Assembly: GCA_023382655.1 (NCBI GenBank)
Contig: JAHDWK010000008.1
Location: 1 to 64,000 of the forward strand
Origin: Anaerolineae bacterium
Lineage (GTDB): Bacteria > Chloroflexota > Anaerolineae > Promineifilales > Promineifilaceae
Length of the DNA stretch: 64,000 nt
Direction: 5' to 3'
This document shows, piece by piece, positions 1 through 15,934 of the stretch (its first letter is position 1; each line of letters begins with the position of its first letter). Below the pieces are notes generated by a model. The model saw nothing but the letters and a program-made list of their open reading frames with translations. It did no database searches and was not told where the DNA came from. A program made the position numbers and the translations under genes.

Positions 1-29
1 AGAAGGTCTATTGTTTTCTCTGCCTGCCT

Positions 30-371: not shown

Positions 372-379
372 GGCGCATC

Positions 380-660: not shown

Positions 661-747
661 CTCGTTTATGAGGTTGAATTTGAAGAGGGTTGAAGGGAAA
701 ATGAACTGTTCCGGCTTCCCTGCGCGAAGCGCTTAGTTCAACTATTT

Positions 748-774
748 ATTATACGGAAAGTGTCCATATATCAA
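748..774 (-). promoter_or_regulatory. Possible promoter of the IS91-like element
   Basis: Read on the minus strand, TTGATA (769-774) is followed after 15 bases by a perfect TATAAT (748-753). The spacer is two bases short of ideal. It points toward the recombinase and transposase relics. Confidence 0.35.
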
Positions 775-792
775 CCCTCACATGGGTTGATA
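769..792. repeat. Hairpin at element end
   Basis: TATCAACCC (769-777) and GGGTTGATA (784-792) form a perfect 9-bp stem with a 6-base loop. It sits exactly where the coding frame of the neighbouring restriction-modification-like fragment is lost, so it probably marks the terminus of the IS91-like element; such elements lack terminal inverted repeats but carry end hairpins. Confidence 0.5.
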
Positions 793-881
793 GTCCGCAC
801 GGCCGTTTCTTTCCGGCTGCCCCCATAGCGGATAATGCATTCGACTTTATTGTGATATTGCTGGATGAGCTGGACGGACAT
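793..881 (-). pseudogene. N-terminal fragment, possibly type ISP restriction-modification enzyme
   Basis: From ATG at 881 the minus strand encodes MSVQLIQQYHNKVECIIRYG followed by GSRKETAVR, then runs into the element-end hairpin and stops. The pattern QxYxxxVExIxxYGGSRxExxxR resembles the start of large type ISP / helicase-methyltransferase restriction enzymes (over 1000 residues). Only about 30 residues remain, so the IS91-like element appears to have cut off or displaced the rest. The family assignment rests on one short motif and is tentative. Confidence 0.4.
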
Positions 882-903
882 GGGGGGATTATAGCCAGAG
901 ATT

Positions 904-926
904 GGTTCAATCTCCAAGATTGAACC
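904..926. terminator. Hairpin formed by the last codons of the preceding gene
   Basis: GGTTCAATCT (904-913) pairs perfectly with AGATTGAACC (917-926) around a 3-base loop. The arm includes the stop codon and the final codons of the metalloprotease gene (stop at 907). No clear U-tract follows, so termination is only possible. Confidence 0.5.
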
Positions 927-3474
927 AATCTAAACCCTTCACCCCCTCACCATTCGTGCCCATTACCACAATAAAATCCGGTTTGATCAATGTGTCATTG
1001 CCGCCAGGGCCGCTGACGGCGAGCGTGACGGTATAAACCCCCGGCATCTCATACATATGCAGCGGGTTGGTCAGCGCGCTGGTAACGCCATCGCCAAAAT
1101 CCCACAAACTGCTGTCATACTCCCCTTCAGACAAATTGATGAAGTTCACCGGCAGCGGCGCGGGGCCATTTTGTGGCAGCCCGTCAAAGTCGGCTACGGG
1201 TGGTGGAACAGATCGCCAGCCCACCGCATAAATGCCATCTTCCACCACCGGCCCCGAGGCCAGCCAGTTCAGCAAGGGGCTGCGCCCGGACACAGCCACC
1301 ACCTGCCACTGGTTCAAGGCGCGGCTGTAATGCAGCAGTTCCAATTGGGCTTCATTCAGACCCAGGCGGTCAACGGCCGTTTGCGGATAAAACAGCGTCA
1401 ACAACCAGGGCGTGTTGGGGACGGGCAGCAGTACATCCAGGTCTACGGCCGTGCCCACGATGGCGGCAAAACCCGGCGGCAGTGGGGCCGTGAGGGCGTC
1501 ATAATCGGCGGCGGGCATGAGGATGGCTTGATTAGTTGTGCCGGGTACGGCCCGAAGCCGCTTCGGGTTCACCGTGTCTGCCGCCACCATCGCCAGCCCA
1601 TCCAGTAGCGGCGCCTGCCCATCATCATGCGCCGGGCCAACGCCGCCCAACGATTGGAACCAACGCCACAATTCGCCCGTGCTGCCCGCCTGCACCCCCA
1701 CCAACCCATATTTGGGCAATGCCTGACCCGATGGCGCGGTGAATACGGCCGTCCAGGTATTGGCATTCACGGCCGTCATCGTTTGCCGCCAATCCACACT
1801 GGCCGGGCAGCCAACGGCCGCATCCGGCGAGCAGCGTTGGGCAACGGGCGGCGTGGGCAGCGTGGCCGGGCTGGTCAGCGTCACCGTCATGGCCGTCAGC
1901 AGCGGGCCAATCATGCCATACGTTACATCCAGGCTGGCTTCCCAGGAGGCGGCCGTTAACAGCAGCGTACTACCATTGGTTAAAGGCGGGGTATTGCTGC
2001 CGGGCGTGGGATAGATGAACCGGCCACCGGTCGTAGCATCGGTGGTGTATTGTTCAGCGTACACGACGGCGCGGCCGGTGGGTGGCACGCCCAACAAGGT
2101 GATATACCCGGCCGAAGCGGGCAGAGTGCGGTTGCTATCACTCGTGCCCTGGTACTGTACACGGCCGTCTTGCGCCAGATAAACCTGCGGATACAGCGCA
2201 TTGCGTTCGGCCGGCGTGAAGCTGCCATCCAGCGTCAGATGAATAGTGGGTTCGGTGGGGGTGGGTACGGCCGTGCCGCTGTTTGCCAGCGCCGGCAGAT
2301 ACAGCCGGTAGCCCGGCGCGTGCCCAAACAGGTCATCCACCACGTCCGGCGTTTGCGTAGCCAGCGGCAGTGCAGGCGGTTGCAGCCAGTCACCTGCCAA
2401 CTGCTGAATGTCACCCCATCGCTGCAATGTGGCCCAATCTGCCTCCCCATGTACGAGCATCTGATCGGTTTGCTGGCAGACGGAGGGGCTGCCATGTTCC
2501 GTGCTGTGCCAGAGGGCTACGGCCGTGTAATGATACGCCATCGCCGAGGCCGCACATGCGCCGGTGGGCAACGCCAGGCAGGTGCAATAGGTTTCCTGTT
2601 TCCCGGCGGGTTGGTTTTGCTGGTATTCGTCGTACAAAAACAGGGCGTAATGGCCCCATTCATGCGCCAACGTGCGGTAAGCGGCGGGCTGTGCCCAATG
2701 GCCGCTAACGGGATCGGCCGCGTCCAGCCCATCCCAATACCGCCCCAGGTAAATGCCACCGGGCGCGTACACCGTCTGGCTGAGGGTGGCGGGCGCGGTG
2801 TAGGGCGTGGCGGCGGGCACAATGCCGCCCATGTAAGCGGTGGGGCGATAATCGTTGGCGGTCAGGAATCGGAGGTCGGCGCTTTCCCAGTGACGGCCGT
2901 CCGCATGAATCGTCACCGCGCCCACCGCCATTTGCCCCTCCGTCAGGTCATACAAATAGGCGGACATCTGGCGCAGGCCGGTTTGTAATTGAGCCACATA
3001 GGGAGAGTTGGCGGCAGGCTGCCAGGCCAGGCTGGCGACGACGTTGAAAAGAACGAGCGGGTGGCTGTCAACCAGTTGAATATCGCCGGTAGCGGGCTGC
3101 CGTTCCGTGCTGCCTGGTTGCCAGCTTGTGGCATACACCCAGTAGGCCGGGCCGTGCCCCGCTTTGCCGGAAGGCTGTGTGTGGCGCAGCCAGAGCGCGG
3201 TCAGATAGGAGCAGTTGGCGGGCAGGGGGTGGGTCAGGTAGCCATTCGTGTTGGTGCGGGCGGGCAGGTCGGTCAACAGCGGCGAGTGGGCGGTGGCGGA
3301 TGCGTAGCAAAGCAGGCGCAGGTCGGCGTATGCCAGGGGCACATTTTGTTCGTCTACAAAACGGAGCGAACCGGAAGCGGCGGTGGGTGGTAAGGAAAGG
3401 TGAAGGATGACGGCCGTGAGCAACCCCAAGCCGATTAATAAAGTGAACAGATTGTACAGTAATCGCTGAGGCAT
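907..3474 (-). CDS. Secreted CLCA-like zinc metalloprotease with PKD domain
   Basis: 855 residues. Residues about 7-28 form a hydrophobic signal/anchor segment. H271-E-W-G-H275 followed by ALFLYDEY matches the HExxH plus DEY signature of CLCA-type (calcium-activated chloride channel accessory) metalloproteases and their bacterial relatives. The middle part has beta-rich repeats with Thr/Pro linkers. Residues about 770-845 are a PKD domain (WDFGDG...NPLHMYEMPGVYTVTL), a common extracellular adhesion module. The protein should be exported and cell-surface or envelope associated; substrate unknown. It ends in residues encoded by a palindrome (904-926). A 20-bp-stem palindromic repeat lies upstream. 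It shares orientation with the repeat protein upstream, but that repeat separates them. Confidence 0.75.
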   Translation of the reverse strand: MPQRLLYNLFTLLIGLGLLTAVILHLSLPPTAASGSLRFVDEQNVPLAYADLRLLCYASATAHSPLLTDLPARTNTNGYLTHPLPANCSYLTALWLRHTQPSGKAGHGPAYWVYATSWQPGSTERQPATGDIQLVDSHPLVLFNVVASLAWQPAANSPYVAQLQTGLRQMSAYLYDLTEGQMAVGAVTIHADGRHWESADLRFLTANDYRPTAYMGGIVPAATPYTAPATLSQTVYAPGGIYLGRYWDGLDAADPVSGHWAQPAAYRTLAHEWGHYALFLYDEYQQNQPAGKQETYCTCLALPTGACAASAMAYHYTAVALWHSTEHGSPSVCQQTDQMLVHGEADWATLQRWGDIQQLAGDWLQPPALPLATQTPDVVDDLFGHAPGYRLYLPALANSGTAVPTPTEPTIHLTLDGSFTPAERNALYPQVYLAQDGRVQYQGTSDSNRTLPASAGYITLLGVPPTGRAVVYAEQYTTDATTGGRFIYPTPGSNTPPLTNGSTLLLTAASWEASLDVTYGMIGPLLTAMTVTLTSPATLPTPPVAQRCSPDAAVGCPASVDWRQTMTAVNANTWTAVFTAPSGQALPKYGLVGVQAGSTGELWRWFQSLGGVGPAHDDGQAPLLDGLAMVAADTVNPKRLRAVPGTTNQAILMPAADYDALTAPLPPGFAAIVGTAVDLDVLLPVPNTPWLLTLFYPQTAVDRLGLNEAQLELLHYSRALNQWQVVAVSGRSPLLNWLASGPVVEDGIYAVGWRSVPPPVADFDGLPQNGPAPLPVNFINLSEGEYDSSLWDFGDGVTSALTNPLHMYEMPGVYTVTLAVSGPGGNDTLIKPDFIVVMGTNGEGVKGLDWFNLGD

Positions 3475-3495
3475 ACGGCCGTCTCCTCTTCGTTC

Positions 3496-3542
3496 GTAGT
3501 AGGCGATTTATCGCCCCTTGACGGCGATAAATCGCCTACTAC
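3496..3542. repeat. Mobile-looking palindrome, copy 1
   Basis: GTAGTAGGCGATTTATCGCC (3496-3515) and its exact reverse complement (3523-3542) form a 20-bp stem with a 7-base loop. A second complete copy is at 30217-30271 and a half copy at 5860-5879. It lies between two minus-strand genes. Confidence 0.9.
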
Positions 3543-3554
3543 AAACAGGTGAAC

Positions 3555-5831
3555 TTAGTTGATGATGACCGGCAGGTAGATGCTGAATTCCTCGATGGGT
3601 GGCAGATCAAGAGTGTAGCTGGTTGTCTGGCCATCCTGGGTGGTGATGAGCAAGGTTTCTGCCTCGATGGTGATGGTAGCCCGGCCAGGGGTGGGGGCGT
3701 TGAGCAGCAGCAGGCCATCGTTATTATACATCTTCACGGCGCTGTCGTCGGCGGTGATGGTGCGGTTTTCGTAGGCGATGACATCGGCACGGCCGTTGGT
3801 GGGAACATGGCGAACCAGGTTGCCGTCGCGGTCGTAGATTTCTACGGAGTCGTCGTCAATGACGATGATGCGGTCGCTGTTGACCTGGACGGTAGCCCGG
3901 CCGTTGGTGGGGACGCGGCGAATCAGGTTGCCATCCCGGTCGTAAATTTCCACCGAGTCGTCGTCAATAATGATAATTTGATTGCCCTCCAGCCGAACGG
4001 TGGGGCCGTCGCTGCCGGGGTTGAGAACGCTGATGCGGCGAATCAGGTTGCCGTCGCGGTCATAAATTTCCACCGAGTCGTCGTCAATGATGATGATGCG
4101 GTCGCCATCTACCATGACGGTGGGACGGCCACTTTCCGTGTTGAGGACGCTGATACGGCGAATCAGGTTACCATCGCGGTCATAAATTTCCACCGAGTCG
4201 TCGTCAATGATGATGATGCGGTCGCCATCTACCATGACGGTGGGACGGCCACTTTCCGTGTTGAGGACGCTGATGCGGCGAATCAGATTGCCATCGCAGT
4301 CATAGATTTCCACGGAATCGTCGTCAATGATGATGATACGGTCGCCATCTACCAGAACAGTGGGACGGCCGCTTTCCGTGTTGAGGACGCTGATGCGGCG
4401 AATCAAGTTGCCATCGCGGTCATAAATTTCCACGGAATCATCGTCAATAATGATGATCCGGTCGCCTTTTATCAGAACGGTGGGGGGGCCGCTTTCCGGG
4501 TTGAGAACGGTAATGCGCCGAATCAGGTTGCCGTCGCGGTCATAGATTTCCACGGAATCGTTATCAATGACGATGATGCGGTCACCGTCTACCAGGACGG
4601 TGGGCGGGCCATTGAGGACGTTGATGTGGCGCAGCAGGTTGCCATGACGGTCGAGGATTTGAACGAAATCGTCGCTAACCAGGATAACCCGACCGATGTC
4701 TAAATGTACCTGGATAGTGGTGCCGGGGGGTAAAGTGAGGATGCTGACGAGGATGCCTTGTTGGGTGAATATCTGCACGGCCGTCGGGTCTACGATGAAT
4801 AGTTGATCACCGTTCAGGTAGACCTGGGCACGGCCGTTGGTGTTGACGTGCTGCAACAAACCAAAATCCAAACTGTAAATTTCCACCGAATCATCATCAA
4901 TGACGATGATAGATTCACCAACCAGGATGTCGGCACGGCCGTTGGTGGGAATGGTGCCCAGGTGTTGTCCGGTGAGGGAGTAGACCTCGACGGCCGTGTC
5001 GTGAATGGCAAACGAGACTTGTTCTGAGGGTACGAGATGAGGGTCTGGGGCCGGAGTGGTTGTGTTGAGCAAGAGGCCGTTCAGATCGTAAATCTCCACC
5101 GAATCGTCATCCAGAACGAAAATAGATTGGGGCAGGATGTGGACGCGGGGGTGGCCGGTGACGGCCGTTTGCAGCAGCACCGTACCATCCGGCCCATAAA
5201 TGGTGACCACGCCATCTTCAAACAGGTAGGTATAAGCGGAGGGGGGAGCGGTTGGTGGCGGTGGTGGAGGGGGAAGTGGCTGTTCCAGAGGGTGAATATA
5301 CTCCGCATCACACAGGGGGTTTAGCTCCGGGCGGGGGATGACCATCACTTCGATGGTGTAAGCGAACTCGGCATTGGCCGCGCCAAAGACGCCACTGGCT
5401 GCGCCCACAGCCAGTGCCAGTTGACTGGTATCCACACGCCAGCCGTCGTCGTCGCTGAGGGTAAAATGTACGCCCAACGGCCGTTCCAACGGATTACAGT
5501 TCAAGTGGTTATAAAGCAAAATGGGGAAGGGTGCGGGAAACGGGGCGACGGGTGGAGCATTGACGGCGGCGATGCCGGCGGCGGGCAGACGGCCGGCGTT
5601 CCCCTCGTGTCCCGGTTGTACCAACGTCCAATCCAGCCACAATTCGCCGGGATCATTTGCCTGGACATTGTCCATGTCGTTTAAGACATTGACGCCCATC
5701 AGCCAGACAACTTCCTGGAAGGCCGGGGGGCCGGGTGGGTCCAGATGTGCCTGGGTGTGCGCCGCGTTCAGACCGATGACGGCCGTGAACAAACAAAAAC
5801 CAATCAACCATTGCCAGATATGTTTTTTCAT
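3555..5831 (-). CDS. Secreted protein with tandem DDDSVEIYDxDGNL repeats
   Basis: 758 residues from ATG at 5831, preceded by AGGAG seven bases upstream; a longer upstream reading runs through a mobile repeat and is rejected. MKKHIWQWLIGFCLFTAVIG is a signal peptide. After a unique N-terminal domain (about residues 30-200) and a proline-rich linker, about a dozen repeats follow with the core IIIIDDDSVEIYDRDGNLIR, each about 30-40 residues. Strand-turn spacing suggests a beta-propeller or beta-solenoid; the Asp clusters could bind calcium. No enzymatic motif is seen. Adjacent repeats are nearly identical in DNA, so copy number probably varies between strains. It is divergently transcribed from the TPR-CHAT gene. 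Function unknown. Confidence 0.75.
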   Translation of the reverse strand: MKKHIWQWLIGFCLFTAVIGLNAAHTQAHLDPPGPPAFQEVVWLMGVNVLNDMDNVQANDPGELWLDWTLVQPGHEGNAGRLPAAGIAAVNAPPVAPFPAPFPILLYNHLNCNPLERPLGVHFTLSDDDGWRVDTSQLALAVGAASGVFGAANAEFAYTIEVMVIPRPELNPLCDAEYIHPLEQPLPPPPPPPTAPPSAYTYLFEDGVVTIYGPDGTVLLQTAVTGHPRVHILPQSIFVLDDDSVEIYDLNGLLLNTTTPAPDPHLVPSEQVSFAIHDTAVEVYSLTGQHLGTIPTNGRADILVGESIIVIDDDSVEIYSLDFGLLQHVNTNGRAQVYLNGDQLFIVDPTAVQIFTQQGILVSILTLPPGTTIQVHLDIGRVILVSDDFVQILDRHGNLLRHINVLNGPPTVLVDGDRIIVIDNDSVEIYDRDGNLIRRITVLNPESGPPTVLIKGDRIIIIDDDSVEIYDRDGNLIRRISVLNTESGRPTVLVDGDRIIIIDDDSVEIYDCDGNLIRRISVLNTESGRPTVMVDGDRIIIIDDDSVEIYDRDGNLIRRISVLNTESGRPTVMVDGDRIIIIDDDSVEIYDRDGNLIRRISVLNPGSDGPTVRLEGNQIIIIDDDSVEIYDRDGNLIRRVPTNGRATVQVNSDRIIVIDDDSVEIYDRDGNLVRHVPTNGRADVIAYENRTITADDSAVKMYNNDGLLLLNAPTPGRATITIEAETLLITTQDGQTTSYTLDLPPIEEFSIYLPVIIN
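3840..4620. repeat. Tandem coding repeats, period 120 bp
   Basis: Within the repeat protein gene the sequence repeats in exact 120-bp register from about 4021 to 4500, with units differing at only a few bases; diverged units of 90-126 bp extend on both sides. Such an array can expand or contract by slippage or recombination and may collapse in assembly. Confidence 0.9.
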
Positions 5832-5855
5832 CTCGTGTCTCCTAAAAAAATATAT

Positions 5856-5880
5856 GTTCGTAGTAGGCGATTTATCGCCA
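5856..5880. repeat. Half copy of the mobile-looking palindrome
   Basis: GTAGTAGGCGATTTATCGCC (5860-5879), preceded by TTC, is one arm of the palindrome complete at 3496-3542 and 30217-30271. The second arm is absent, so this is a solo or decayed copy just upstream of the repeat-protein gene. Confidence 0.85.
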
Positions 5881-6002
5881 TCCACTATCACGCTCTTACC
5901 AAAAGGACGCACAACGGGCCGCAGACCTTTCCACGAGTTTTGTGGGGAGCAGTGCCCGGCACAGGGCTTGAGGCGTTTGGATGAAAAGCAGGTGTTGCCC
6001 TG

Positions 6003-6035
6003 TGTCTGATACTACTTTGGTTATAATGTCAGACA
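6003..6035 (+). promoter_or_regulatory. Leaderless-type promoter with flanking inverted repeat
   Basis: A perfect -10 box TATAAT (6022-6027) ends eight bases before the ATG at 6036, so transcription would start at or next to the start codon, and no Shine-Dalgarno is present. The box lies between TGTCTGA (6003-6009) and TCAGACA (6029-6035), an inverted repeat that could be an operator. No convincing -35 is visible, which fits a regulated promoter. Confidence 0.5.
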
Positions 6036-8456
6036 ATGAACGAGAATGTGATAGAAGGGAAGGCAGCGTGGACGGCCGTACTCACGGTATCCCCGGATGA
6101 TTTAGCCCAATTGGAACAGACTGACCTGCCGCGCTGGCGGCGGTGGCACGAAGAGGGCGTGGACGCACTGGGGCAACAGGTACGCACGGGCAACACGGCC
6201 GTTGAGCCAGACTTTTTGCGGCTGCTGGAACGGTTAGGCAACCGGCTGCTGCTGGATGACCCGGACGCTTTTGTGGCATTAGCAAAGGGTATGGCCGATG
6301 TGCCCATTCAGACGCGGGCGGGGCAGCAGTTGCTACGTTACTTTGGCGGGGTGGCATTGGGTTTGCAGGATCGCTATGAAGCGGCGCTGGCAGTTTTTGA
6401 TGCGTTGCTGGCGGAGGCGGGACTGGATGAAGTGGTTTACGGCCGTGCCCTCAATTCCCGCGCCCTCTATTGCCGTATCACCGGGCGTTTGCAGGAGGCC
6501 ATTACCGGCTATCGGCAAAGTCTGGCGGTCTGGCAGCGGTTGGGCAACCGGCTGCGTGAAGGGCTGGCCTGGCTGAATCTGGGCATTGTTGCCTACCAGT
6601 TACAGCAGTATGACGAAGGGGAAATTGATCTGAATCAGGCTTTGCAATGTTTCACAGAAACCGGATCGGGGCAATGGGCGGCGGCGGCCCAAAGTGGTCT
6701 GGGACTCATTTACCGCGACCGGGGGCAGTGGGCGGCCGCGATGGCTTGTTTTGCGGCCGTCGTGGCGCGCCGCCGGGCAGACGGCGCCCGAGATTCACTC
6801 GGCCGCGTTCTGGTCAACATCAGTGAAGCCCATCTGATGCAGGGTCATTTAGAGGAAGCCGTAGCCACCGCCCAGGAGGGTTTGGCTTATTTAGAGACCA
6901 AAGTTTATGCGATGAACGCCCATTTAGCCGTGGGGTTGGCGCGGCAGGTAGCCGGTGAGTTAGCCGCAGCCAGGGCCGACTTTGAAGCGGCACTGGCGCT
7001 GGCGCAGGCGATTGGGCGGCAGGATATGTTGGCAGAAGCGCACTTGCGGTTGGGGGACGTACTGCGCCGGTTGGGTGATGATGAGGCCGCGTTAACGCAG
7101 TTTCGCGCGGGGGCTAACGTCATTGAAGCGACCCGCGCCCCGCTGCGCGACGAAGGGGTGAAGATCAGCTTGCTGGGGCGTTGGCAGCAGGTTTATGAGG
7201 CCCTGGTGTTACATTGTTTGGAGATGGGGCGCGCGACGGAGGCATTTGCCTGGGCGGAACGGGCGCGGGCACGGGCGTTTGTGGAAGCGGTGGGTGGTAT
7301 GGTAGAGCCAGAAACAAAAATGGATGATTTGCCGGACATTCCCCCGGATACGGCCGTATTGTCCTACTTTACCACCGGAGTGTTGGATCGAGAGTTACCC
7401 TGGTTGCAACAACTTCCGTCTGACAGTGCGGTACGGGAGCATTTGCTGCCACCGGCGCGGACGGTGCTGTTTTTCCTGACGGCGGCGGGATTGACGGCGC
7501 ACGTTTGCCCGCTGAATCCCAATGACCTGGTCTGGCGTTCACCACGTCTGGAGGATCGGAACCGGTTTTTGGACACGGCCGTCTGCCGTGCTCTGTATGA
7601 TCTCCTTTTGCCTGCTCCAGTTTTGGCTGGCGCGCAGCGCGTTTTGATTGCCCCACACGGCCCTTTGCATGAAGTTCCTTTTGCCGCGTTGCGGGATGGG
7701 GCAGGACGGCCGTTGTCCTGGCCGGGCAATCCCTTGCTTACCATGATTCCCAGCGTGACCTTCTGGCGGCAACATCAGCGGCGACCGACTATTGTCCCAA
7801 ACCGGTTGTGTCTGGCGGTGGGGTATGATGGTACAGGCCATTCGTTGCGGCACACAGAAACAGAAGCACGTTTCATTGCGATTACCACCGGCGGTGATGT
7901 GTGGATAGGGGCGCAGCCGAAAGCGGCGCTGCTGGCCGAGCAGGGGGGGGAGTATCGCTGGTTGCATGTGGCCTGTCACGGCCGTTTTGACCCACAATCG
8001 CCGCTTGATTCTTACCTGGAAACGGGGGCGGGGGAACGGTTGACGGCGCGGCAGGTATTGGCCTGGCGGCTGCCGGTGGAACTGGTGACATTAAGCGCCT
8101 GCCAGACGGGGGTCAGCCAGGTGCAGCGCGGCGATGAACCGATGGGATTGGTGCGCGCTTTCCTGGCGGCTGGAGCCAGAGCGGTGTTGGTCAGCCAATG
8201 GGCGGTGGCTGATTGGCCGACCTTTTTGCTGATGCGCCGCTTTTACCAGGAGTTGATGGTGGGGACGGAGACGACGGCGGCTTTACACATGGCACAAGGT
8301 TGGCTGCAATCGGTAACGCCCGTTGAACTCCAATCCATTGCCTCGGAATTGCCCGGCGGAGCGGAAGAAGCAACTAATTGGCTGGCAGGAAAAGAGGAAG
8401 GGGCACGGCTGTTTGCTCACCCGCGTTTTTGGGCAGCGTTTGTGGTGGTGGGGTGA
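6036..8456 (+). CDS. TPR-CHAT caspase-like protease
   Basis: 806 residues. The N-terminal two thirds consist of TPR-type helical hairpins (for example ALNSRALYCRITGRLQEAI, GLAWLNLGIVAYQLQQYDEG). The C-terminal third is a CHAT domain: HGPLHEVPFAAL, then the catalytic His in LHVACHG (H648) and Cys in TLSACQTG (C689), followed by GLVRAFLAAGARAVLVSQW. CHAT domains are cysteine proteases related to caspases and separases; TPRs usually sense a partner. There is no signal peptide or membrane segment, so it acts in the cytoplasm. It starts without a Shine-Dalgarno directly after a -10 box. It is convergent with a sigma/anti-sigma pair that it might process. The domain call is firm, the target is inference. 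Confidence 0.9.
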   Translation: MNENVIEGKAAWTAVLTVSPDDLAQLEQTDLPRWRRWHEEGVDALGQQVRTGNTAVEPDFLRLLERLGNRLLLDDPDAFVALAKGMADVPIQTRAGQQLLRYFGGVALGLQDRYEAALAVFDALLAEAGLDEVVYGRALNSRALYCRITGRLQEAITGYRQSLAVWQRLGNRLREGLAWLNLGIVAYQLQQYDEGEIDLNQALQCFTETGSGQWAAAAQSGLGLIYRDRGQWAAAMACFAAVVARRRADGARDSLGRVLVNISEAHLMQGHLEEAVATAQEGLAYLETKVYAMNAHLAVGLARQVAGELAAARADFEAALALAQAIGRQDMLAEAHLRLGDVLRRLGDDEAALTQFRAGANVIEATRAPLRDEGVKISLLGRWQQVYEALVLHCLEMGRATEAFAWAERARARAFVEAVGGMVEPETKMDDLPDIPPDTAVLSYFTTGVLDRELPWLQQLPSDSAVREHLLPPARTVLFFLTAAGLTAHVCPLNPNDLVWRSPRLEDRNRFLDTAVCRALYDLLLPAPVLAGAQRVLIAPHGPLHEVPFAALRDGAGRPLSWPGNPLLTMIPSVTFWRQHQRRPTIVPNRLCLAVGYDGTGHSLRHTETEARFIAITTGGDVWIGAQPKAALLAEQGGEYRWLHVACHGRFDPQSPLDSYLETGAGERLTARQVLAWRLPVELVTLSACQTGVSQVQRGDEPMGLVRAFLAAGARAVLVSQWAVADWPTFLLMRRFYQELMVGTETTAALHMAQGWLQSVTPVELQSIASELPGGAEEATNWLAGKEEGARLFAHPRFWAAFVVVG

Positions 8457-8493
8457 CACGGCGCTGTTCCAAGTCAGGCAATCTCTCAATTAC

Positions 8494-9219
8494 TTAATCC
8501 GTAATCGTCAGCGTCACGGTGTCAAGGTTGTCTATGGGGATGTGTTCAAAGGCGGCAACACCCCAGGGGTTGGTGATTTGTTGGTGGGTACGGTCAGGGA
8601 GTTGCAGGGTGACGACGAACCCGGCTAAGTGGGGCCAGGCACGGCCGTGCGGCTGCACCCACACTTCCACCAGACAGTCGGTTGGGGCCAGGGCGTCCCG
8701 ATAAACCAGCACTTTGAGGGGCAAGTCGGCTTGTAACTCCTCGGTTGGTTCAAGCGCCAGCAGTAGCTCTGCATAACGCTCTTCTGTGGAAGAAGCACGG
8801 AGGGGGATAGGCGCGCCTTGGGGTTGCAGCAGGGTCAGCAGCTCGGCAGAGAGGCGGAAAGACCAGCCGTTTTCCAGTTTTTCTACGCCCATGCGCAGCC
8901 TATCTACCAGTGAAGGTGCAGCAGTGGGAGTTGGCAATAGGAAAGAGAGGTTGGGCTGCCGGGCGTTTTGTAGGGAGGGAAGGGCATCAGCCTGGTCGGC
9001 CAGGGCCAGGCGGTAGAGACGGCCGTAGGCGGCAGCACAGGTCAGGCAGCCATCCAGATGCGTGGCGATGTGGGGGAAGAGGGGGAAAGGGTCACGGCCG
9101 TCCATCTGCGCGGCCACATACCCATCAAGCTCCTCTAATACAGCGGCACAGGTGGCATCGTCGCCCGTCACCTGCAAAGCTGCCCTTAACTGTTTGTGTG
9201 TTGTCCTTTCATCGGCCAT
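8494..9219 (-). CDS. Zinc-finger anti-sigma-like protein
   Basis: 241 residues, ATG at 9219 after AGGAGA. H54-x3-C58-x2-C61 (HLDGCLTC) is the ZAS-type zinc-binding motif of anti-sigma factors, inside a helical region of about residues 10-75. The rest is soluble: a middle helical part and a beta-rich C-terminal domain of about 90 residues (LKVLVYRD...VTLQLPDRTHQQITNPWGVAAFEHIPI) resembling carboxypeptidase-regulatory or surface Ig-like modules. No transmembrane segment is seen, unlike most membrane anti-sigmas. It follows the ECF sigma gene in one operon, the normal order for sigma and anti-sigma, and faces the TPR-CHAT gene. It probably binds and silences the sigma factor; the signal is unknown. 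Confidence 0.7.
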   Translation of the reverse strand: MADERTTHKQLRAALQVTGDDATCAAVLEELDGYVAAQMDGRDPFPLFPHIATHLDGCLTCAAAYGRLYRLALADQADALPSLQNARQPNLSFLLPTPTAAPSLVDRLRMGVEKLENGWSFRLSAELLTLLQPQGAPIPLRASSTEERYAELLLALEPTEELQADLPLKVLVYRDALAPTDCLVEVWVQPHGRAWPHLAGFVVTLQLPDRTHQQITNPWGVAAFEHIPIDNLDTVTLTITD

Positions 9220-9308
9220 CCTGATCTTCTCCTATAGCAAAGACGTTCGCGGCAGCTAATTCCTTTCCTGTAAAAGCAGCGACTGGAGTTTGGTCAATCT
9301 CCAATCTC

Positions 9309-9926
9309 CTAATCGCCCATCTCCGCCAACAATATCACTAATGGTGGCCACTGGCGCAGCTTGGCGATGTTTTTAGAACGTGTGACCTGGATGTGGCTGG
9401 GCAGTGTTTCCATTTCAGCCAGTTTGCTTTCAATTTCAGCCAATATCTCATCAGGCAGGTCTTGCAGGTAACGGCCGATCACCACGCGGCGCGAGCGGTC
9501 ACTGATGGGCGCCTGTTGGATGGCGGCGTAGAGATCGTGTAAGTGGGCGGCGACGGCCGTTTCATCTTCCAGTGTAGGCTTTTCTACGGCCACGTTATTT
9601 AAAATATGGTCCAGGTCATCTTCGGCGGCAAAGGTCAGCCGGGCGCGGCGGCGCAGGGCATCAATGGCGATGTGGCTGGCGATTTGCCTGGCCCAGGCAC
9701 GGAAGGCAGCCGGTTCGTGACACGCATCCAGCCGTTGGTGAATGCGAATGAGGGCGGTTTGGGCACAGTCCTGTGCCAACGCCTCAGCTTCCGGCTGATC
9801 ATACACCACTTGCAGCGCCACCCGGCTGAGATAACTGAATAATGCAGCGTAGGCCTGCGGGTTGGCATCCTGGCAGGCATGATACCAGGTGGCGCTGTCC
9901 ATGTAAGCAGGGGGAGCGTGGTTCAT
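9309..9926 (-). CDS. ECF RNA polymerase sigma factor
   Basis: 205 residues. Region 2 is recognisable at about residues 20-95 (AYAALFSYLSRVALQVVYDQ, ALAQDCAQTALIRIHQRL, FRAWARQIASHIAIDALRRR), followed by a linker and region 4 at about 130-195 (SDRSRRVVIGRYLQDLPDEI, then LAEMETLPSHIQVTRSKNIAKLRQ as helix-turn-helix). The region 4 recognition helix is preceded by an unusual glutamate-rich stretch. The start codon lies 11 bases after a perfect terminator hairpin of the upstream cold-shock gene and has no clear Shine-Dalgarno, so expression may need read-through or a leaderless promoter. The ZAS protein follows 90 bases downstream. It likely drives a regulon that includes nearby surface or CHAT genes; that is inference. 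Confidence 0.85.
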   Translation of the reverse strand: MNHAPPAYMDSATWYHACQDANPQAYAALFSYLSRVALQVVYDQPEAEALAQDCAQTALIRIHQRLDACHEPAAFRAWARQIASHIAIDALRRRARLTFAAEDDLDHILNNVAVEKPTLEDETAVAAHLHDLYAAIQQAPISDRSRRVVIGRYLQDLPDEILAEIESKLAEMETLPSHIQVTRSKNIAKLRQWPPLVILLAEMGD

Positions 9927-9937
9927 AACTGGCTTCT

Positions 9938-9981
9938 ACGCAAAAAAATAGCACACGGTTTTGTGTGCTATTTTTTTGCGT
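9938..9981. terminator. Strong bidirectional-type terminator, 19-bp stem
   Basis: ACGCAAAAAAATAGCACAC (9938-9956) pairs perfectly with its complement at 9963-9981 around the loop GGTTTT. Both arms carry a run of seven A/T, giving a U-rich tract for the minus-strand cold-shock transcript. Its downstream edge is 11 bases from the sigma factor start codon. Confidence 0.9.
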
Positions 9982-9996
9982 TATCTATCTGTCTGG

Positions 9997-10212
9997 TTAC
10001 GGTAAAACAACGACATCTTGGGCTTGTAAGCCATTGCGGCCGGGGCCAACTGTGTATTCAACAGCCTGGCCGTCTTGCAATGTTTTGAAGCCATTGCCCT
10101 GGATGGCGCTGTAATGGACGAACAAATCGTCGCCGCCTTCACTGCGCTCAATGAAGCCAAAACCTTTGTCTTTGTTAAACCACTTGACAGTGCCAGTTTC
10201 ACGCTCTGCCAT
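9997..10212 (-). CDS. Cold-shock domain protein
   Basis: 71 residues, a single [23 protein letters not shown] (RNP1 is GFGFIE) and [10 protein letters not shown] (RNP2 FVHYS), with a C-terminal beta strand AQDVVVLP. Such proteins bind single-stranded RNA/DNA, act as RNA chaperones and antiterminators. ATG at 10212 follows GGAGG seven bases upstream. The long upstream gap (10213-10506) probably contains a structured 5-prime leader as is usual for cold-shock genes; no promoter could be assigned with confidence. A strong terminator follows immediately. Confidence 0.95.
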
Positions 10213-10493
10213 ATCAAAACCTCCAATTTCCAGGCAGCCAATTACGAACTAATGTTTACTAATACCGCAAAACCTGCTACCTGACTGTGAAGCTGAGGAG
10301 GTTTGTGGATTTCGTTACCTGTCCTAAAATAGCAGCCTGATTTGTAAATATCGGCGGAAAGGCTAACACAGAGAAGAGAGGTTGTCAATGCGCGGCAGGC
10401 TTTGCCTAAACGCTGCTAAGGTAAAAAGGAGATTGAGCGATCACCTTGCCACCCTATCACTTCCTCACCCTACCCCTCCTCACCCCATCACCT

Positions 10494-10499
10494 TATAAT
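10494..10499 (+). promoter_or_regulatory. -10 box of a leaderless promoter for tyrA
   Basis: TATAAT ends seven bases before the ATG at 10507, with no Shine-Dalgarno in between, the same layout as for the TPR-CHAT gene. Upstream is a C-rich, TCACC-reiterated stretch without a clear -35. Confidence 0.5.
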
Positions 10500-10506
10500 C
10501 AGGGCT

Positions 10507-11379
10507 ATGCAGGTGGAACGAATTTGTATTGTGGGGTTGGGATTGATTGGCGGGTCACTGGCGCTGGCGCTGCGGCTGGCACAGCGCACGGCCGTGCCCA
10601 CCTTTCCCCTCCATCTCACCATCGTAGATACCAACCCGGATACACGGGTGGCCGCCGAGCGGCTGGCCGATGTGGTGACAGACGATCTAGCGACCGGCGT
10701 GGCAACGGCGGAATTGGTGATTTTGGCGACGCCGGTGCGGACGATTTTGCATTGCCTGACGCTGCTGCCAGTGGTACGGCCGTCTGGCCTGATGATTCTC
10801 GACCTGGGTAGCAGCAAGGCGGATATTTGCCTTGTCATGGATAATTTGCCGGCCTCGTTTCAGGCGGTGGGCGGGCACCCCATGGCCGGTAAAGAGGTTG
10901 CCGGGTTTGGCGCAGCCACCCCCGATTTGTTTCAGGATCAGACATTTATCCTGTGCCAGACACAGCGCACGACGCCGCAAGTGGAAACTGTGGTGCTAGA
11001 CCTGGTGCGGCGAGTTCGGGCGCAACCGCTCTTTTTGCCACCGGCGTTGCATGATGAAATGGTGGCCACAATCAGCCATTTGCCATATGTGGTGGCGGCT
11101 TCGTTAATGCGAACGGCGGCGAGCCTGGCGGACGAGCGCTTGTGGCCGGTGAGTTCATCGGGTTTTCGGGACACGTCGCGGGTGTCGGGCACCAATCCCC
11201 AGATGATGCTAGACATTTTGCTCACCAACCGCACGGCCGTATTGGGGCAAATTGCGGCGTTTCAGGAACGGCTGACGGCCGTGACGCAACTTCTGCAAGC
11301 GGCTGATGAGGAGAAGCTCTATCGCTGGCTCAGCGAAACCCAGGCGGTGTATCAGACGTACCGGCGATTTAAGCAGTAA
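10507..11379 (+). CDS. tyrA: Prephenate dehydrogenase
   Basis: 290 residues. N-terminal Rossmann fold with the NAD-binding glycine motif ICIVGLGLIGGSLALAL at residues 6-22, then ILATPVRTI, LDLGSSK and the characteristic GGHPMAGKEVAGFGAA (about 121-136) with the catalytic His of TyrA. The C-terminal helical dimerisation part includes ISHLPYVVAASL and SSSGFRDTSRVSGTNP. It oxidatively decarboxylates prephenate to 4-hydroxyphenylpyruvate in tyrosine synthesis. There is no fused chorismate mutase or ACT domain, so feedback control through an ACT domain is absent. It stands alone, outside any aromatic-amino-acid operon in this window. Arogenate specificity cannot be excluded. Confidence 0.9.
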   Translation: MQVERICIVGLGLIGGSLALALRLAQRTAVPTFPLHLTIVDTNPDTRVAAERLADVVTDDLATGVATAELVILATPVRTILHCLTLLPVVRPSGLMILDLGSSKADICLVMDNLPASFQAVGGHPMAGKEVAGFGAATPDLFQDQTFILCQTQRTTPQVETVVLDLVRRVRAQPLFLPPALHDEMVATISHLPYVVAASLMRTAASLADERLWPVSSSGFRDTSRVSGTNPQMMLDILLTNRTAVLGQIAAFQERLTAVTQLLQAADEEKLYRWLSETQAVYQTYRRFKQ

Positions 11380-11390
11380 TATGTGGCGCA

Positions 11391-11447
11391 AATCGTAATC
11401 CGCAGTCTGAAATCCCAGTTACGGATTACCGATTACGCCGTACCGAT
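11391..11447. repeat. CGTAATC-word intergenic repeat
   Basis: CGTAATCCG (11394-11402) is followed by the complementary words CGGATTAC and CGATTACG (11422-11436), forming an imperfect hairpin between tyrA and the PII-like gene. Related word repeats occur at about 17898, 27429, 40288, 52187, 56920 and 62912. Confidence 0.75.
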
Positions 11448-11461
11448 TAATGGAGGTTCTT

Positions 11462-11827
11462 ATGTATATGCTGGTAATGGTGTTGGATGATCCCACGCGC
11501 CTCAATGAGATTCTGGATGCCTGGACGCAAGCCGGTGTGCCCGGCATCACCATTGTAGAAAGTACCGGCGTCAACCGCGTCCTGGCACGTCAGTCAGCGC
11601 GTGCTGCTTACGCGGGATTTGGGCAAATTTTTGGCGGGGGACGAGTCGGGCACAATACGATCTTTTCGGTGATACCCGCGCTGGAAGTCGCGGAAAAAGT
11701 GGTGGCGGCTACAGAAAGCGTATTAGGAAACCTGAGTGAGCCGCATACGGGGGTAATATTTGTGCTGCCGGTAACCCAGGCATGGGGTCTGTCGCCACAT
11801 ACGGCAAATCATCAGGGGGAGTCATGA
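11462..11827 (+). CDS. PII-like signalling protein
   Basis: 121 residues. The start is the second in-frame ATG (11462), five bases after GGAGG; the first ATG overlaps the ribosome-binding site. MYMLVMVLDDPTRLNEILDA followed by a ferredoxin-like beta-alpha-beta pattern and a Gly-rich loop (FGQIFGGGRVGHNTIFSVI) at the place of the PII T-loop resembles P-II/PII-like proteins of about 110-120 residues. The uridylylated tyrosine of classical GlnB is not conserved. The stop overlaps the start of a CaCA exchanger by four bases (ATGA), so the two are translationally coupled, similar to other PII-like proteins encoded next to the transporter they control. The ligand is unknown. Confidence 0.65.
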   Translation: MYMLVMVLDDPTRLNEILDAWTQAGVPGITIVESTGVNRVLARQSARAAYAGFGQIFGGGRVGHNTIFSVIPALEVAEKVVAATESVLGNLSEPHTGVIFVLPVTQAWGLSPHTANHQGES

Positions 11828-12819
11828 TCTGGTTGCAATTTATTATTAGCGCAGCGGTCGTGGTGATAGCCGCTCATTTTTTGGCGCAACATGGCGACAT
11901 TATTGCCGTGCGCACCAAATTGGGCGGGTTGTTTGTCGGTACGGTCTTTCTGGCGGCGGCTACTTCTCTGCCGGAGCTGCTGGCTTCGTTTAATGCGTTC
12001 CGCGTAGGCGCACCCAATCTGGCGGCCGGTAACTTTTTTGGCAGCAATATGGTGAACATGGCGTTGTTGGCTGTATTAGACCTGCTTTATTTTCAAGCGC
12101 CTTTGATGCGGCGGATTGCCGTCAATCATGTGCTGACGGCGGGACTGACGATATTGCTCATGCTTATTGCGGTTACTTCTATTGTGGCCGATATAGATAT
12201 TACCATTGGCTGGGTGGGACTGGATAGCATCATCATCATTGCCGGTTATTTTGTGGGTTTGTGGGTGATTCAACAGGGGGCGCGGGAAGGGGGGGCTACG
12301 GCCGTAACCCCCGACATAGAACCCGGCCCCAATTTCCCCTCCCTGCGGCGGGGTATCATCGGTTTTGCCCTTGCCACCATTGTCCTGATGACTGTTGTGC
12401 CCGTTTTGGTAAACGCCAGCACCGGTATTGCCGAGATCACCGGGTTGGGGACGGGTTTTGTGGGCACTTCGCTGCTGGCACTGGTGACATCGCTGCCGGA
12501 GCTGATTGCAGCGTTGGCCGCCATGCGGATCAATGCCTTCGATCTGGCTGTGGGCAACCTGTTTGGGTCGAGTGTATTTAATATGTTTGCCATGGGGCTG
12601 GCGGATTTTGCGTATTTAGACGGCCGTTTCCTGGGCGCGATTGATCCCAACTTTGCCATTGTTGGCCTGTTGGGCCTGCTGCTGACGGCGATGGCGCTTA
12701 TGGGCACGTTGGCTCGTGTAGAACGTCGTTTCCTCTTCATTGAACTTGACAGCGCTGCTATTTTGGTTGTCTATTTCCTGGGCATGTATCTATTACTTAT
12801 ACGCGGGGTGGGTATTTAG
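11824..12819 (+). CDS. Sodium/calcium exchanger family (CaCA) membrane protein
   Basis: 331 residues starting at ATG 11824, which overlaps the upstream stop codon. About ten hydrophobic segments arranged as two homologous halves, each with the alpha-repeat signature: FLAAATSLPELLASFNAFR with NLAAGNFFGSNMVNMALL in the first half, and SLLALVTSLPELIAALAAMR with DLAVGNLFGSSVFNMFAMG in the second. These G-S-N/TSLPE motifs form the cation site of YrbG/CaCA antiporters. It probably exports Ca2+ or exchanges cations against Na+ or H+ in the cytoplasmic membrane. Coupling to a PII-like protein suggests that a small-molecule signal controls transport. Confidence 0.85.
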   Translation: MIWLQFIISAAVVVIAAHFLAQHGDIIAVRTKLGGLFVGTVFLAAATSLPELLASFNAFRVGAPNLAAGNFFGSNMVNMALLAVLDLLYFQAPLMRRIAVNHVLTAGLTILLMLIAVTSIVADIDITIGWVGLDSIIIIAGYFVGLWVIQQGAREGGATAVTPDIEPGPNFPSLRRGIIGFALATIVLMTVVPVLVNASTGIAEITGLGTGFVGTSLLALVTSLPELIAALAAMRINAFDLAVGNLFGSSVFNMFAMGLADFAYLDGRFLGAIDPNFAIVGLLGLLLTAMALMGTLARVERRFLFIELDSAAILVVYFLGMYLLLIRGVGI

Positions 12820-12885
12820 CAATCGTTCGTTTGGCGATGGGGGCAGTTTTGGAGATTGGACCCATCGCCGACAGGGAGATGCATC

Positions 12886-13641
12886 ATGTACGAAACCAAT
12901 ATATATGAAGGAATGTTGGCCGAAACTGTCACATTGACCGGCGCAAAGGGGGACATCATCAATGCCTATTATGCCCGGCCGCTTGGCCCTGGCCCTTTTC
13001 CCGGCATGGTAATCATTCACCATATGCCTGGCTGGGACGAGTGGTACCGGGAAGCCACCCGCAAATTTGCTCATCATGGGTACGCGGCCGTGTCACCCAA
13101 TTTGTATTACCGCGCCGGGCATGGCACGCCGGAAGATGTGGCCGCCAAAGTGCGGGCGGCCGGTGGTCTGGCCGATGAGCAGGCGGTGGGCGATATTGCC
13201 GGGGCGCTGCATTTCCTGAAAGCCCAACCAATTTTGAATGGTAAAGTGGGCGTGTGGGGTACCTGTTCCGGTGGTCGCCATGCCTATCTGGCAGCCTGCC
13301 GCGCCCCTGGTTTTGACGCGGTGGTGGATTGTTGGGGCGGCCGTGTGGTCATGGCGGAGGCGGATCTGAATGCGAAGTACCCGGTCGCTGCCATTGATTA
13401 CACCAAAGACCTGGCCTGCCCCTTGCTGGGCATTTTTGGCGCAGATGATCACAGCCCCACGCCGGAGCAAGTGGCCCAGCATGAGGCGGAATTGAAAAAG
13501 CAGGGCAAGGAGTACGAATTCCACATGTATGACGGCGCGGGGCACGGCTTTTTTTATTATGATCGGCCGGCATACCGCCAGCAGCAAGCAGTGGATGGCT
13601 GGCAGAAAATATGGGCATTTTTAGGGAAGCATTTGGTGTAG
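12886..13641 (+). CDS. Dienelactone hydrolase family protein
   Basis: 251 residues, ATG at 12886 after GGGAGA. Alpha/beta hydrolase fold with nucleophile in GVWGTCSGGRHAYLA (the usual G-x-C-x-G nucleophile elbow of dienelactone hydrolases; here GTCSGG), a late aspartate in IFGADDHSPTP and the histidine in DGAGHGFFYYDRPAYR. These motifs are diagnostic of the DLH family, which includes carboxymethylenebutenolidase and many esterases of unknown substrate. No signal peptide, so cytoplasmic. It stands between the CaCA gene and a small DUF6295-like gene with about 40-65-base spacings in one direction, so co-transcription is possible. The physiological substrate is unknown. Confidence 0.88.
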   Translation: MYETNIYEGMLAETVTLTGAKGDIINAYYARPLGPGPFPGMVIIHHMPGWDEWYREATRKFAHHGYAAVSPNLYYRAGHGTPEDVAAKVRAAGGLADEQAVGDIAGALHFLKAQPILNGKVGVWGTCSGGRHAYLAACRAPGFDAVVDCWGGRVVMAEADLNAKYPVAAIDYTKDLACPLLGIFGADDHSPTPEQVAQHEAELKKQGKEYEFHMYDGAGHGFFYYDRPAYRQQQAVDGWQKIWAFLGKHLV

Positions 13642-13680
13642 TGTGTGGCCGCGGCCACACACTACACACTGGACGAGCGT

Positions 13681-13947
13681 ATGTGTACGATGATTGTGCA
13701 GCAGGTAACAATTGAGGGCAGCGGTAAGGGGCGCGAAGGTTGGATGGTGGTAAATCAGGCTAATGTTTCCTATGACCATCCTTTCCATGCGCCCTTTGAA
13801 CATGCCTTGAACATTGATTTTGTGAATGTGGGGCAAGGTCCCGGGGCGCGGGTGGCGGTGGAGTTAAGCGCCGAAGCCGCGCGCTCCCTGGTACAAACCA
13901 TTCAAGCCGTACTCGCCGAAGCGGAGAGTGGGGGGCATATTGTTTAG
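13681..13947 (+). CDS. Small conserved protein, DUF6295-like
   Basis: 88 residues from ATG at 13681 (MCTMIVQQVTIEGSGKGREG). The pattern MCT-I-V, SGKG-GW, V-YDHP-HAP-EH-LNIDF, followed by VAVELSAEAARSLV, matches the small family annotated DUF6295 as far as remembered. It is soluble, mixed alpha/beta, function unknown. The last codons overlap by four bases with the convergent lipoprotein gene. The 5-prime gap contains repeated ACACAC words but no strong Shine-Dalgarno. Confidence 0.65.
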   Translation: MCTMIVQQVTIEGSGKGREGWMVVNQANVSYDHPFHAPFEHALNIDFVNVGQGPGARVAVELSAEAARSLVQTIQAVLAEAESGGHIV

Positions 13948-14480
13948 TGAGCGGTGCAACCCTCCAGACGTGAGCAGAAGGCGTGGCAAACGTCTGCGGT
14001 AAGTCCCGCATACAAGATGTAAAACTCATTGTTGTCGCGGGTCAAGGTATAGCTGTGGCTGCATGGTTCCAGGGTGGGTGACTGTGGTCCGCGTAAGTTA
14101 GTGTCGGGGACGCATTGCATGAAGGTAATCGGATTCAACAGAGCAGCCCGGTCACCGACGGCCACAATACCACTGTTTTGGGGGATGTTGGGATCACTGT
14201 AGACGCGGGTGCTGACGGCGCCGGCCTCCTGATAGCAGCCAACAATGGCACTGATACCGGCAATGGGCGCGCCGAATTGGGGCTGCCCGGCCAGAGTAGC
14301 CATCACCCCCAATGAGGTGAGCGCATCAGTAAAACTTTGCCCTTCAATCGTGTTGTAGCCCTCTAGTTCTGGCAGTAGTTCTGCGGCTGAGCCACCGCCA
14401 CCACCGGGCAGCATGTCACAACTGACCAAAAGCAATAAGGACAACATCATGACGCTTAGAAGAATAAACATTTTGGACAT
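13944..14480 (-). CDS. Putative lipoprotein of unknown function
   Basis: 178 residues from ATG at 14480 (AGGAG eight bases upstream; an in-frame TTG six bases earlier is less likely). MSKMFILLSVMMLSLLLLVSC is a lipoprotein signal with lipobox LVSC, followed by a Gly-rich linker. The mature part contains paired cysteines (GCYQEAGAV, FMQCVP, LEPCSHSY, DVCHAFCSRLEGC) that could form disulfides outside the membrane. No family is recognised. It overlaps the convergent DUF6295-like gene by four bases and is divergent from the epoxide-hydrolase-like gene. Confidence 0.6.
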   Translation of the reverse strand: MSKMFILLSVMMLSLLLLVSCDMLPGGGGGSAAELLPELEGYNTIEGQSFTDALTSLGVMATLAGQPQFGAPIAGISAIVGCYQEAGAVSTRVYSDPNIPQNSGIVAVGDRAALLNPITFMQCVPDTNLRGPQSPTLEPCSHSYTLTRDNNEFYILYAGLTADVCHAFCSRLEGCTAH

Positions 14481-14559
14481 TCGCAAACTCCTTTTTATTG
14501 ATTGCTGGTTTTACCTTTGATAAGAGCAACCAACACAGCCTTTGTGGGAGGTCATCACA

Positions 14560-15450
14560 ATGATAACAATTACCAATGGTTATGAACATGACTTTATTCA
14601 GACCAACGGCATCACCTTGCACACCGTCATGGCCGGGCCAGCAGATGGCCAGCCTATTATACTACTGCATGGGTTCCCCGAAGCCTGGTTTGGCTGGCGC
14701 AAGCAGATCATGGCTCTGGCGGGGCAGGGCTTTCGGGTGATTGTGCCCGACCAGCGCGGCTACAACCTGAGCGACAAACCACGCGGCGTGGCGGCATATC
14801 ATCTGGATAATCTGGCGCGGGATGTAATTGGTTTGATGGATGGGATGGGATACCAGGATGTATATCTGGCGGGGCATGATTGGGGCGGGGTGGTGGGTTG
14901 GTGGCTGGCTGTGCATTTTCCGCAACGGCTGCGCAAACTGGCGTTTCTGAATGTGCCGTTTCCCACCGTTGCCGTGGCCGCGGTACGGGCAGGCAATACG
15001 GCGCAGCGGCGTAAGAGCTGGTATGTGTTGGCTTTTCAACTGCCCTGGATCGCGGAACGGGGTTTCCGGCAGCAAAATGTGGGCGAGGGGCGCAATATCT
15101 TGCTGCGTACCAGTCACAAGACAACATTTTCCCCGGCAGAACTGTTGGTCTATGAACACGCCTGGGCAAAACCGGGGGCGGTAACGGCGATGCTTAACTG
15201 GTATCGGGCTAATTTGCGTTTGTTTCTGACGATGCCGCAGCCACCGTCGGCTTCCATTCTGACGCCGACGTTGATGCTGTGGGGAGAACAAGACCGGGCG
15301 TTGGGCAAAGAGCTAGCGTCGCCGAGTATTGAGTTATGCGCGGACGGCCGTCTCCACTTTTTCCCTAACGCTTCTCACTGGCTGCAACATGATGAGGCGG
15401 AGGCGGTGAACAGGTATTTAGGGGAGTTTTTCAGTACACAAAAGGAATGA
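14560..15450 (+). CDS. Alpha/beta hydrolase, epoxide hydrolase-like
   Basis: 296 residues, ATG at 14560 after GGGAGG. Motifs in order: oxyanion loop HGFPEAWFGW (HGxP, about residues 39-48), VPDQRGYNLSDKP, nucleophile elbow AGHDWGGVVGW with the Asp nucleophile typical of epoxide hydrolases and haloalkane dehalogenases rather than the Ser of esterases, late acid in LWGEQDRALG, and catalytic His in FPNASHWLQHDEAE. The family opens epoxides or cleaves C-halogen bonds via an alkyl-enzyme ester. Lid residues are not sufficient to separate the two activities. It overlaps the 3-prime end of the convergent methyltransferase gene by 20 bases. Confidence 0.85.
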   Translation: MITITNGYEHDFIQTNGITLHTVMAGPADGQPIILLHGFPEAWFGWRKQIMALAGQGFRVIVPDQRGYNLSDKPRGVAAYHLDNLARDVIGLMDGMGYQDVYLAGHDWGGVVGWWLAVHFPQRLRKLAFLNVPFPTVAVAAVRAGNTAQRRKSWYVLAFQLPWIAERGFRQQNVGEGRNILLRTSHKTTFSPAELLVYEHAWAKPGAVTAMLNWYRANLRLFLTMPQPPSASILTPTLMLWGEQDRALGKELASPSIELCADGRLHFFPNASHWLQHDEAEAVNRYLGEFFSTQKE

Positions 15451-15916: not shown

Positions 15917-15934
15917 GGTGTGCCTCTAAAGGTA

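Follow-up and report, generated by a model that had tools for sequence, protein, structure and literature searches.

A conserved TPR-CHAT, anti-sigma and ECF sigma factor gene module with a predicted secreted output in Chloroflexota: a putative protease-controlled sigma switch without CRISPR

Introduction

The closest described counterpart of the locus reported here is the type III-E Craspase/CASP circuit (Csx29-Csx30-CASP-sigma, PMC10028731). The two share a tetratricopeptide repeat (TPR)-CHAT protein with a caspase-like His/Cys dyad, an extracytoplasmic function (ECF) sigma factor, a putative sigma inhibitor encoded alongside, and sigma motifs inside their own locus (PMC10028731). The present locus lies in a 64,000-nt stretch of the Anaerolineae bacterium contig JAHDWK010000008.1 (genome of 7.7 Mb), hereafter the window. 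In this locus, a TPR-CHAT gene converges on the genes of an ECF sigma factor and of a putative soluble zinc-binding anti-sigma (ZAS) protein, and a secreted metalloprotease-like protein is the fourth partner. On balance, we favor the reading that these genes form a protease-controlled ECF sigma switch without CRISPR, in which the CHAT protein would cleave the ZAS protein and release the sigma factor.

The module most likely works like the CASP circuit. However, it is not a type III-E member, because no CRISPR-like repeats were seen by a crude finder in the window or in loci L107-L130 (no genome-wide search for Cas7-11 was made), the CHAT protein scored only 34.1 bits against the Csx29 model (NF041237), far under the cut-off of 300, and the inhibitor is a different protein from Csx30, being of the ZAS type with a beta-sandwich and without a Pfam or PDB sequence match. 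The output also differs from that of CASP, as it would comprise exported proteins and the anti-sigma itself. A first-pass annotation of this DNA had suggested a Csx29-like switch lacking an RNA-guided part; the closest fold and the lack of a visible array agree with this view, and the mechanism is put forward here as a proposal.

In the CalpL-CalpT-CalpS protease/anti-sigma/sigma system of type III CRISPR, a cytosolic protease cuts the anti-sigma and frees an ECF sigma factor, which is the same logic. Cyclic oligoadenylate activates CalpL, a Lon-SAVED protease, whereas the present locus has a TPR-CHAT protein and no CRISPR signal. CalpL appears in PMC11417357. ChrR-SigE and RsrA-SigR combine a soluble ZAS domain with an ECF sigma partner, and ChrR also has a beta-rich C-terminal domain (PMC8999054). 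These systems sense oxidants, whereas the present family can dispense with its zinc site and includes a CHAT gene in the unit; in the model, the C-terminal domain resembles MATH/Ig domains and not a cupin. The DdvS-DdvA pair of Myxococcus xanthus (8rot, 8rw5) includes a CHAT-fold anti-sigma that matches our CHAT model along its length; however, DdvA is a single transmembrane anti-sigma, whereas two separate soluble proteins, neither with a membrane span, are encoded here. In the Caspase/EACC2-ECF sigma-DUF1822 neighborhoods, a caspase-like protease gene likewise stands near an ECF sigma factor and a TPR protein, but the domains differ and no anti-sigma is described there (PMC8195603). No CHAT-ZAS-ECF module outside CRISPR was described in the literature within reach of our search, which did not extend to subscription papers, including those on DdvA and on ECF classification.

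Conservation of the gene module

The ZAS query found relatives in 14 of the 56 genomes of the order, and the CHAT query in 15 of the 56. In the combined core set, all three genes were present in the order sigma->ZAS-><-CHAT in 16 loci, and two further loci carried ZAS and CHAT at a contig end. Wherever the contigs were long enough to show it, most loci retained this layout, down to ~30-37% ZAS identity, and the record labels include Ardenticatenaceae, Anaerolineae, Thermoflexales, Chloroflexaceae, and Herpetosiphonaceae metagenome-assembled genomes. The triad is co-inherited across many genera, and the expectation that the three genes would be neighbors in relatives was borne out. One genome (G001) has two triads; for all three proteins, one triad clusters with the window genus, and the second with L025/L026. 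The CHAT and ZAS identity matrices correlated with r=0.96, or 0.905 without the window genus. A CHAT gene without an adjacent ZAS gene was found in four core loci (L111, L121, L127, and L129), and in genome G007 different contigs carry the sigma gene, the ZAS gene, and the CHAT/metalloprotease genes.

The remaining flanks of the window (csp, prephenate dehydrogenase, and others) are common mainly to congeners; therefore, the conserved unit is the module and not the wider region. The first-pass annotation had described three genes. This triad is real, but the unit extends to position 907, and the secreted fourth gene and the regulon had been missed. Table 1 summarizes the features of the locus; the stop codons of ZAS and CHAT are separated by 37 nt. 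A scan of positions 1-20000 against Rfam gave no match, and PADLOC returned weak TPR/BovA matches only and no defense system. In one relative only (L109, 3688-7197), CHAT and ZAS are separated by the gene of a secreted FG-GAP/PKD protein of 1169 aa.

Table 1. Genes and predicted promoter elements of the module, with positions in the window.
Feature	Position	Strand	Description
TPR-CHAT protein	6036..8456	+	806 aa; Pfam CHAT and TPRs; putative caspase-like cysteine protease, proposed input/sensor-protease
ZAS-type anti-sigma (putative, soluble)	8494..9219	-	241 aa; motif, alignments, AF2 model
ECF sigma factor	9309..9926	-	205 aa; TIGR02937, Sigma70_r2
ECF-type promoter (predicted) of ZAS	9242..9268	-	GGAAAGGA-N15-CGTC, 22 nt from the ZAS start
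ECF-type promoter (predicted)	5906..5932	-	Exact GGAAAGGT-N15-CGTC, oriented toward the propeller/metalloprotease genes, opposite to CHAT
Secreted repeat protein, propeller-like tandem repeats	3555..5831	-	Signal-peptide-like N-terminus; this genus only
Secreted metalloprotease-like protein	907..3474	-	CLCA-type motif HEWGHYALFLYDEY and PKD domain; fourth partner
TATAAT box	6022..6027	+	8 nt ahead of the CHAT ATG; identified by inspection of the sequence

The anti-sigma protein and the sigma factor

The ZAS protein harbors HLDGCLTC at residues 54-61, with C24, H54, C58, and C61 as the predicted zinc ligands. Its architecture comprises a helical anti-sigma domain, a linker with the sequence PNLSFL (~89-95; PDLSFL in the family), and a beta-sandwich C-terminal domain (~112-241). 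The linker is of low confidence in the AlphaFold2 (AF2) model and follows the conserved motif P-[DN]-[LF]-x-F-L, and the alignments show that the C-terminal domain is well conserved. No membrane span was predicted for ZAS, and together with the AF2 model this agrees with the earlier description of a protein outside the membrane with an extra beta-rich C-terminal domain.

The searches against Pfam and NCBIfam gave no usable family for ZAS, the ZAS profile found only chance T-cell-receptor matches among the PDB sequences, and Foldseek with the ZAS model returned nothing at E<=0.001. In the model (pLDDT 82), residues 18-96 were superposed weakly on ChrR (2z2s), with Z 6.3 over 70 residues, a root-mean-square deviation of 11.9, and 21% identity. 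A MATH/TRAF family was considered for residues 111-241 and rejected, as Z values of 6-6.7 are at a level common to unrelated sandwiches; no family is claimed.

All four zinc ligands were kept in 11 of the 15 aligned ZAS members and lost together in the other four, where the positions read QQSA, FMSL, NWDL, and WLSI. The HxxxCxxC motif reported at first is thus present here but not universal. The ligand-less lineages retain the linker and also the CHAT dyad wherever the contig includes the CHAT gene. Therefore, the zinc site has a structural role or can be dispensed with, and the input common to the family cannot be redox sensing.

This result bears on a ChrR/RsrA-like scheme, in which ZAS itself senses, through zinc/thiol redox or a ligand in the beta-sandwich, and frees the sigma factor without proteolysis, while CHAT merely modulates or has a neighboring function. 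Indeed, in ChrR a soluble ZAS is joined to a second C-terminal domain responsive to singlet oxygen (PMC8999054), and both the alignment of the N-terminal domain with ChrR in 2z2s and the conservation of the C-terminal domain would fit. Although it is the strongest of the alternatives, we consider this scheme unlikely, as zinc or redox is not the common input in the family and nearly all loci keep the CHAT gene linked and co-inherited, although the C-terminal domain may still sense a ligand. 

The sigma factor is conserved in all complete triads and scored 48.1 bits against TIGR02937 (cut-off 42.9; match spanning 25-165) and 35.2 against Sigma70_r2 (cut-off 24). Region 2 is clear; region 4 (RS.RVVIGRY...SHIQVTRxKNIAKLR) is divergent, without a Pfam region-4 match, and a conserved helix-turn-helix-like stretch is present. 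A near-perfect terminator-like hairpin (9942-9980) lies between a cold-shock-type gene (9981-10241, minus strand) and the start of the sigma gene, so that only ~13 nt remain for read-through or for a sigma promoter of its own.

The TPR-CHAT protein

The CHAT protein matched PF12770 with 170.9 bits (5.5e-50) in addition to Pfam TPRs, and no membrane span was predicted. H648 (in LHVACHG) and C689 (in LSACQTG) are invariant in 13/13 and 22/22 aligned relatives and align with the CHG and ACET motifs of Csx29. The initial description of a cytoplasmic TPR-CHAT protein with H648 and C689 is thereby upheld. The AF2 model (pLDDT 87, pTM 0.85) had its best PDB matches in Csx29/Craspase (Z ~30), separase (Z ~25), and DdvA (Foldseek E ~1e-12, TM 0.5), and Rap, NprR, and LGN were also among the fold matches. 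A CHAT-domain profile against the PDB sequences found Csx29 (E 3.6e-14) and DdvA (E 1.3e-6), whereas a single CHAT-domain query found nothing there. Csx29 is thus the best fold match of the model and also a sequence match of the CHAT domain.

Part of this evidence would also suit partner switching, in which the TPR-CHAT protein binds ZAS or the sigma factor and acts by stoichiometric displacement, with catalysis serving self-processing or another purpose. TPR arrays act as platforms for peptide binding, as the matches to Rap, NprR, and LGN recall, and DdvA, a CHAT-fold anti-sigma, is made of the same parts. We judge this possibility rather unlikely as well, since an invariant His and Cys in 22/22 relatives is what catalysis would predict. 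For the proteolytic switch, ZAS is the best substrate candidate, given that the dyad is invariant, that CHAT and ZAS are co-inherited, and that Csx29-Csx30-CASP-sigma offers a precedent (PMC10028731). We infer that cleavage of ZAS by CHAT is the best mechanism.

Promoter and predicted regulon

A comparison of upstream regions resulted in the element GGAAAGGT-N15-CGTC. Across 25 loci (266 kb), it has 30 exact copies in 19 loci, all at spacing 15, and no copies were found at spacings 10-14 and 16-21. Toward ZAS, 14 of 19 upstream regions carry the promoter with at most one mismatch in the -35, and 17 of 19 have the GGAAAG core. The promoter points toward the metalloprotease or propeller gene at 15 of the 19 CHAT loci and toward CHAT at none (0/19). 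Upstream of the sigma gene, the element was found in 1 of 16 loci only, with two -35 mismatches. Based on these results, CHAT as a sigma output was ruled out by promoter direction, and an autoregulated sigma gene was ruled out as well. The first-pass annotation had described a sigma-ZAS operon; the genes are placed as it stated, but they are not simply one operon, as ZAS has its own sigma-type promoter (9242-9268). In G007, with its genes on separate contigs, ZAS and the metalloprotease each still carry the promoter.

Within the whole 7.7-Mb genome, the exact motif occurs once, as the 5906-5932 copy. Among the 56 genomes, the motif was enriched solely in those that have the system: the 15 genomes with the system gave 40 motif matches against 13 for the reversed control, whereas 41 other genomes gave 19 against 37 (Fisher p=2e-5). 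Distant matches in the system genomes mostly precede large exported proteins, and an export-type N-terminus was present in 28 of the 33 non-ZAS targets versus 35% of background open reading frames (ORFs). The same promoter was not found at the more distant loci L070-L102, which is what one would expect if other sigma factors act there. Given the linkage and the ECF-like form, the linked sigma factor would be the one that reads GGAAAGGT-N15-CGTC. An exact promoter copy also stands directly upstream of a gene beside the module that encodes a putative NTPase-like protein of 881 aa without an export signal (L170, 612-3257; also L022, 9611-12256).

Because the promoter precedes ZAS and the secreted genes and never CHAT, ZAS and the exported proteins look like the sigma output and CHAT looks like the input. 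The TATAAT box before CHAT, with similar boxes in the congeners L108-L110, suggests a housekeeping-type, near-leaderless promoter for CHAT and not one of the ECF type. With CHAT outside and ZAS inside the regulon, the predicted wiring is the expected one for a sensor-protease that removes the anti-sigma, whose resynthesis shuts the system off.

The promoter data also weigh on the possibility that CHAT is a terminator or effector, either degrading the sigma factor or acting downstream, for example as a regulated cell-death protease, instead of being the activator. Proteolysis of the sigma factor itself controls some ECF sigma factors (PMC8999054), and caspase-like domains occur together with ECF sigma genes in conflict systems (PMC8195603). 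Nevertheless, this role is improbable, as CHAT stands outside the sigma regulon (0/19) with a TATAAT box instead, and the regulon consists of ZAS and exported proteins. Chance or merely positional conservation without functional linkage is highly improbable even though CHAT (8) and sigma-70 (34) genes are numerous in this genome, as order and orientation are conserved at ~30-40% identity while other flanks differ, and a promoter element recurs across the unit.

The secreted partner

Relatives of the metalloprotease-like gene (907-3474) are divergent from CHAT in most loci (34 locus matches, which include repeated retrievals of the same place). At L121, a metalloprotease relative adjoins CHAT although ZAS is on another contig. 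This genome has one full-length member. The residues H271, E272, H275, D282, and Y284 are invariant in 18 metalloprotease members, and the HExxH-x6-D-x-Y zinc motif is present; we take the spacing of HEWGHYALFLYDEY to match the CLCA metalloprotease motif. The CLCA family of Pfam was not reached above cut-off (best E 0.007, 16.3 bits versus 25.6), with weak matches in 4 of the 18 members, and the metalloprotease profile found nothing in PDB.

In this genus, a propeller-like secreted gene stands between the metalloprotease and CHAT genes. Its ORF opens at 5912 (first GTG), and that start overlaps the promoter at 5906-5932; hence, M28 (ATG at 5831) is the likelier start. The metalloprotease-like and propeller-like genes are probably co-transcribed from this promoter.

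Proposed mechanism and its significance

In the resting cell, the N-terminal anti-sigma domain of the soluble ZAS protein would keep the ECF sigma factor bound. The TPR array would read an intracellular cue that activates the caspase-like site of CHAT, which would then cleave ZAS, most plausibly at or near the flexible conserved PDLSFL linker between the two domains, setting the sigma factor free. The freed sigma factor would drive the GGAAAGGT-N15-CGTC promoters with two kinds of output: ZAS, as negative feedback, and exported proteins, foremost the CLCA-like metalloprotease and, in this genus, the propeller-like protein. The CHAT and sigma genes would be outside the regulon and probably constitutive.

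Several points count against this switch. Convergent genes do not guarantee interaction, and the CHAT dyad could be conserved for another substrate. The anti-sigma assignment of ZAS is drawn from position, motif, and a weak model match, with no Pfam match, and PDLSFL may be a structural or sigma-contact motif instead of the cut site. The CHAT-ZAS mirror-tree correlation is partly species phylogeny. In addition, the CHAT loci lacking an adjacent ZAS (L111, L121, L127, and L129) may indicate that CHAT does other work, or that ZAS is elsewhere, as in G007.

More tentatively, TPR-CHAT proteases controlling ECF sigma factors may be a widespread, CRISPR-independent class of bacterial signaling. The Chloroflexota tetrad, mostly of Anaerolineae type, would then be one well-defined family, marked by a promoter code of its own and by a secreted protease as output, and type III-E CASP may represent the recruitment of a pre-existing protease/anti-sigma/sigma module. 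If true, caspase-like anti-sigma proteolysis would be a general route from an internal cue to transcription, with the CRISPR version as a special case, and a large group of TPR-CHAT proteins presently without a function would gain one. With so short and strict a promoter, and a regulon confined to one locus in this genome, the pathway lends itself to direct testing.

A wider search across the taxonomic class found the same convergent layout with more distant proteins at L053, L070-L073, L081, L086, and L102. A second CHAT-sigma layout, often co-directional, was seen at L033, L074, L076, L077, L079, L096, and L100. It comprises a CHAT protein of ~1100 aa, an ECF sigma factor, and two ZAS proteins, one short (90-130 aa) and one long (~220-300 aa), and one copy is present in this genome (contig C31). 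At L082, L084, L085, and L091, mostly with no adjoining CHAT gene and with no anti-sigma domain match detected, tandem proteins of ~240-290 aa carry HVARCP[HN]C and a C-terminal domain resembling that of ZAS.

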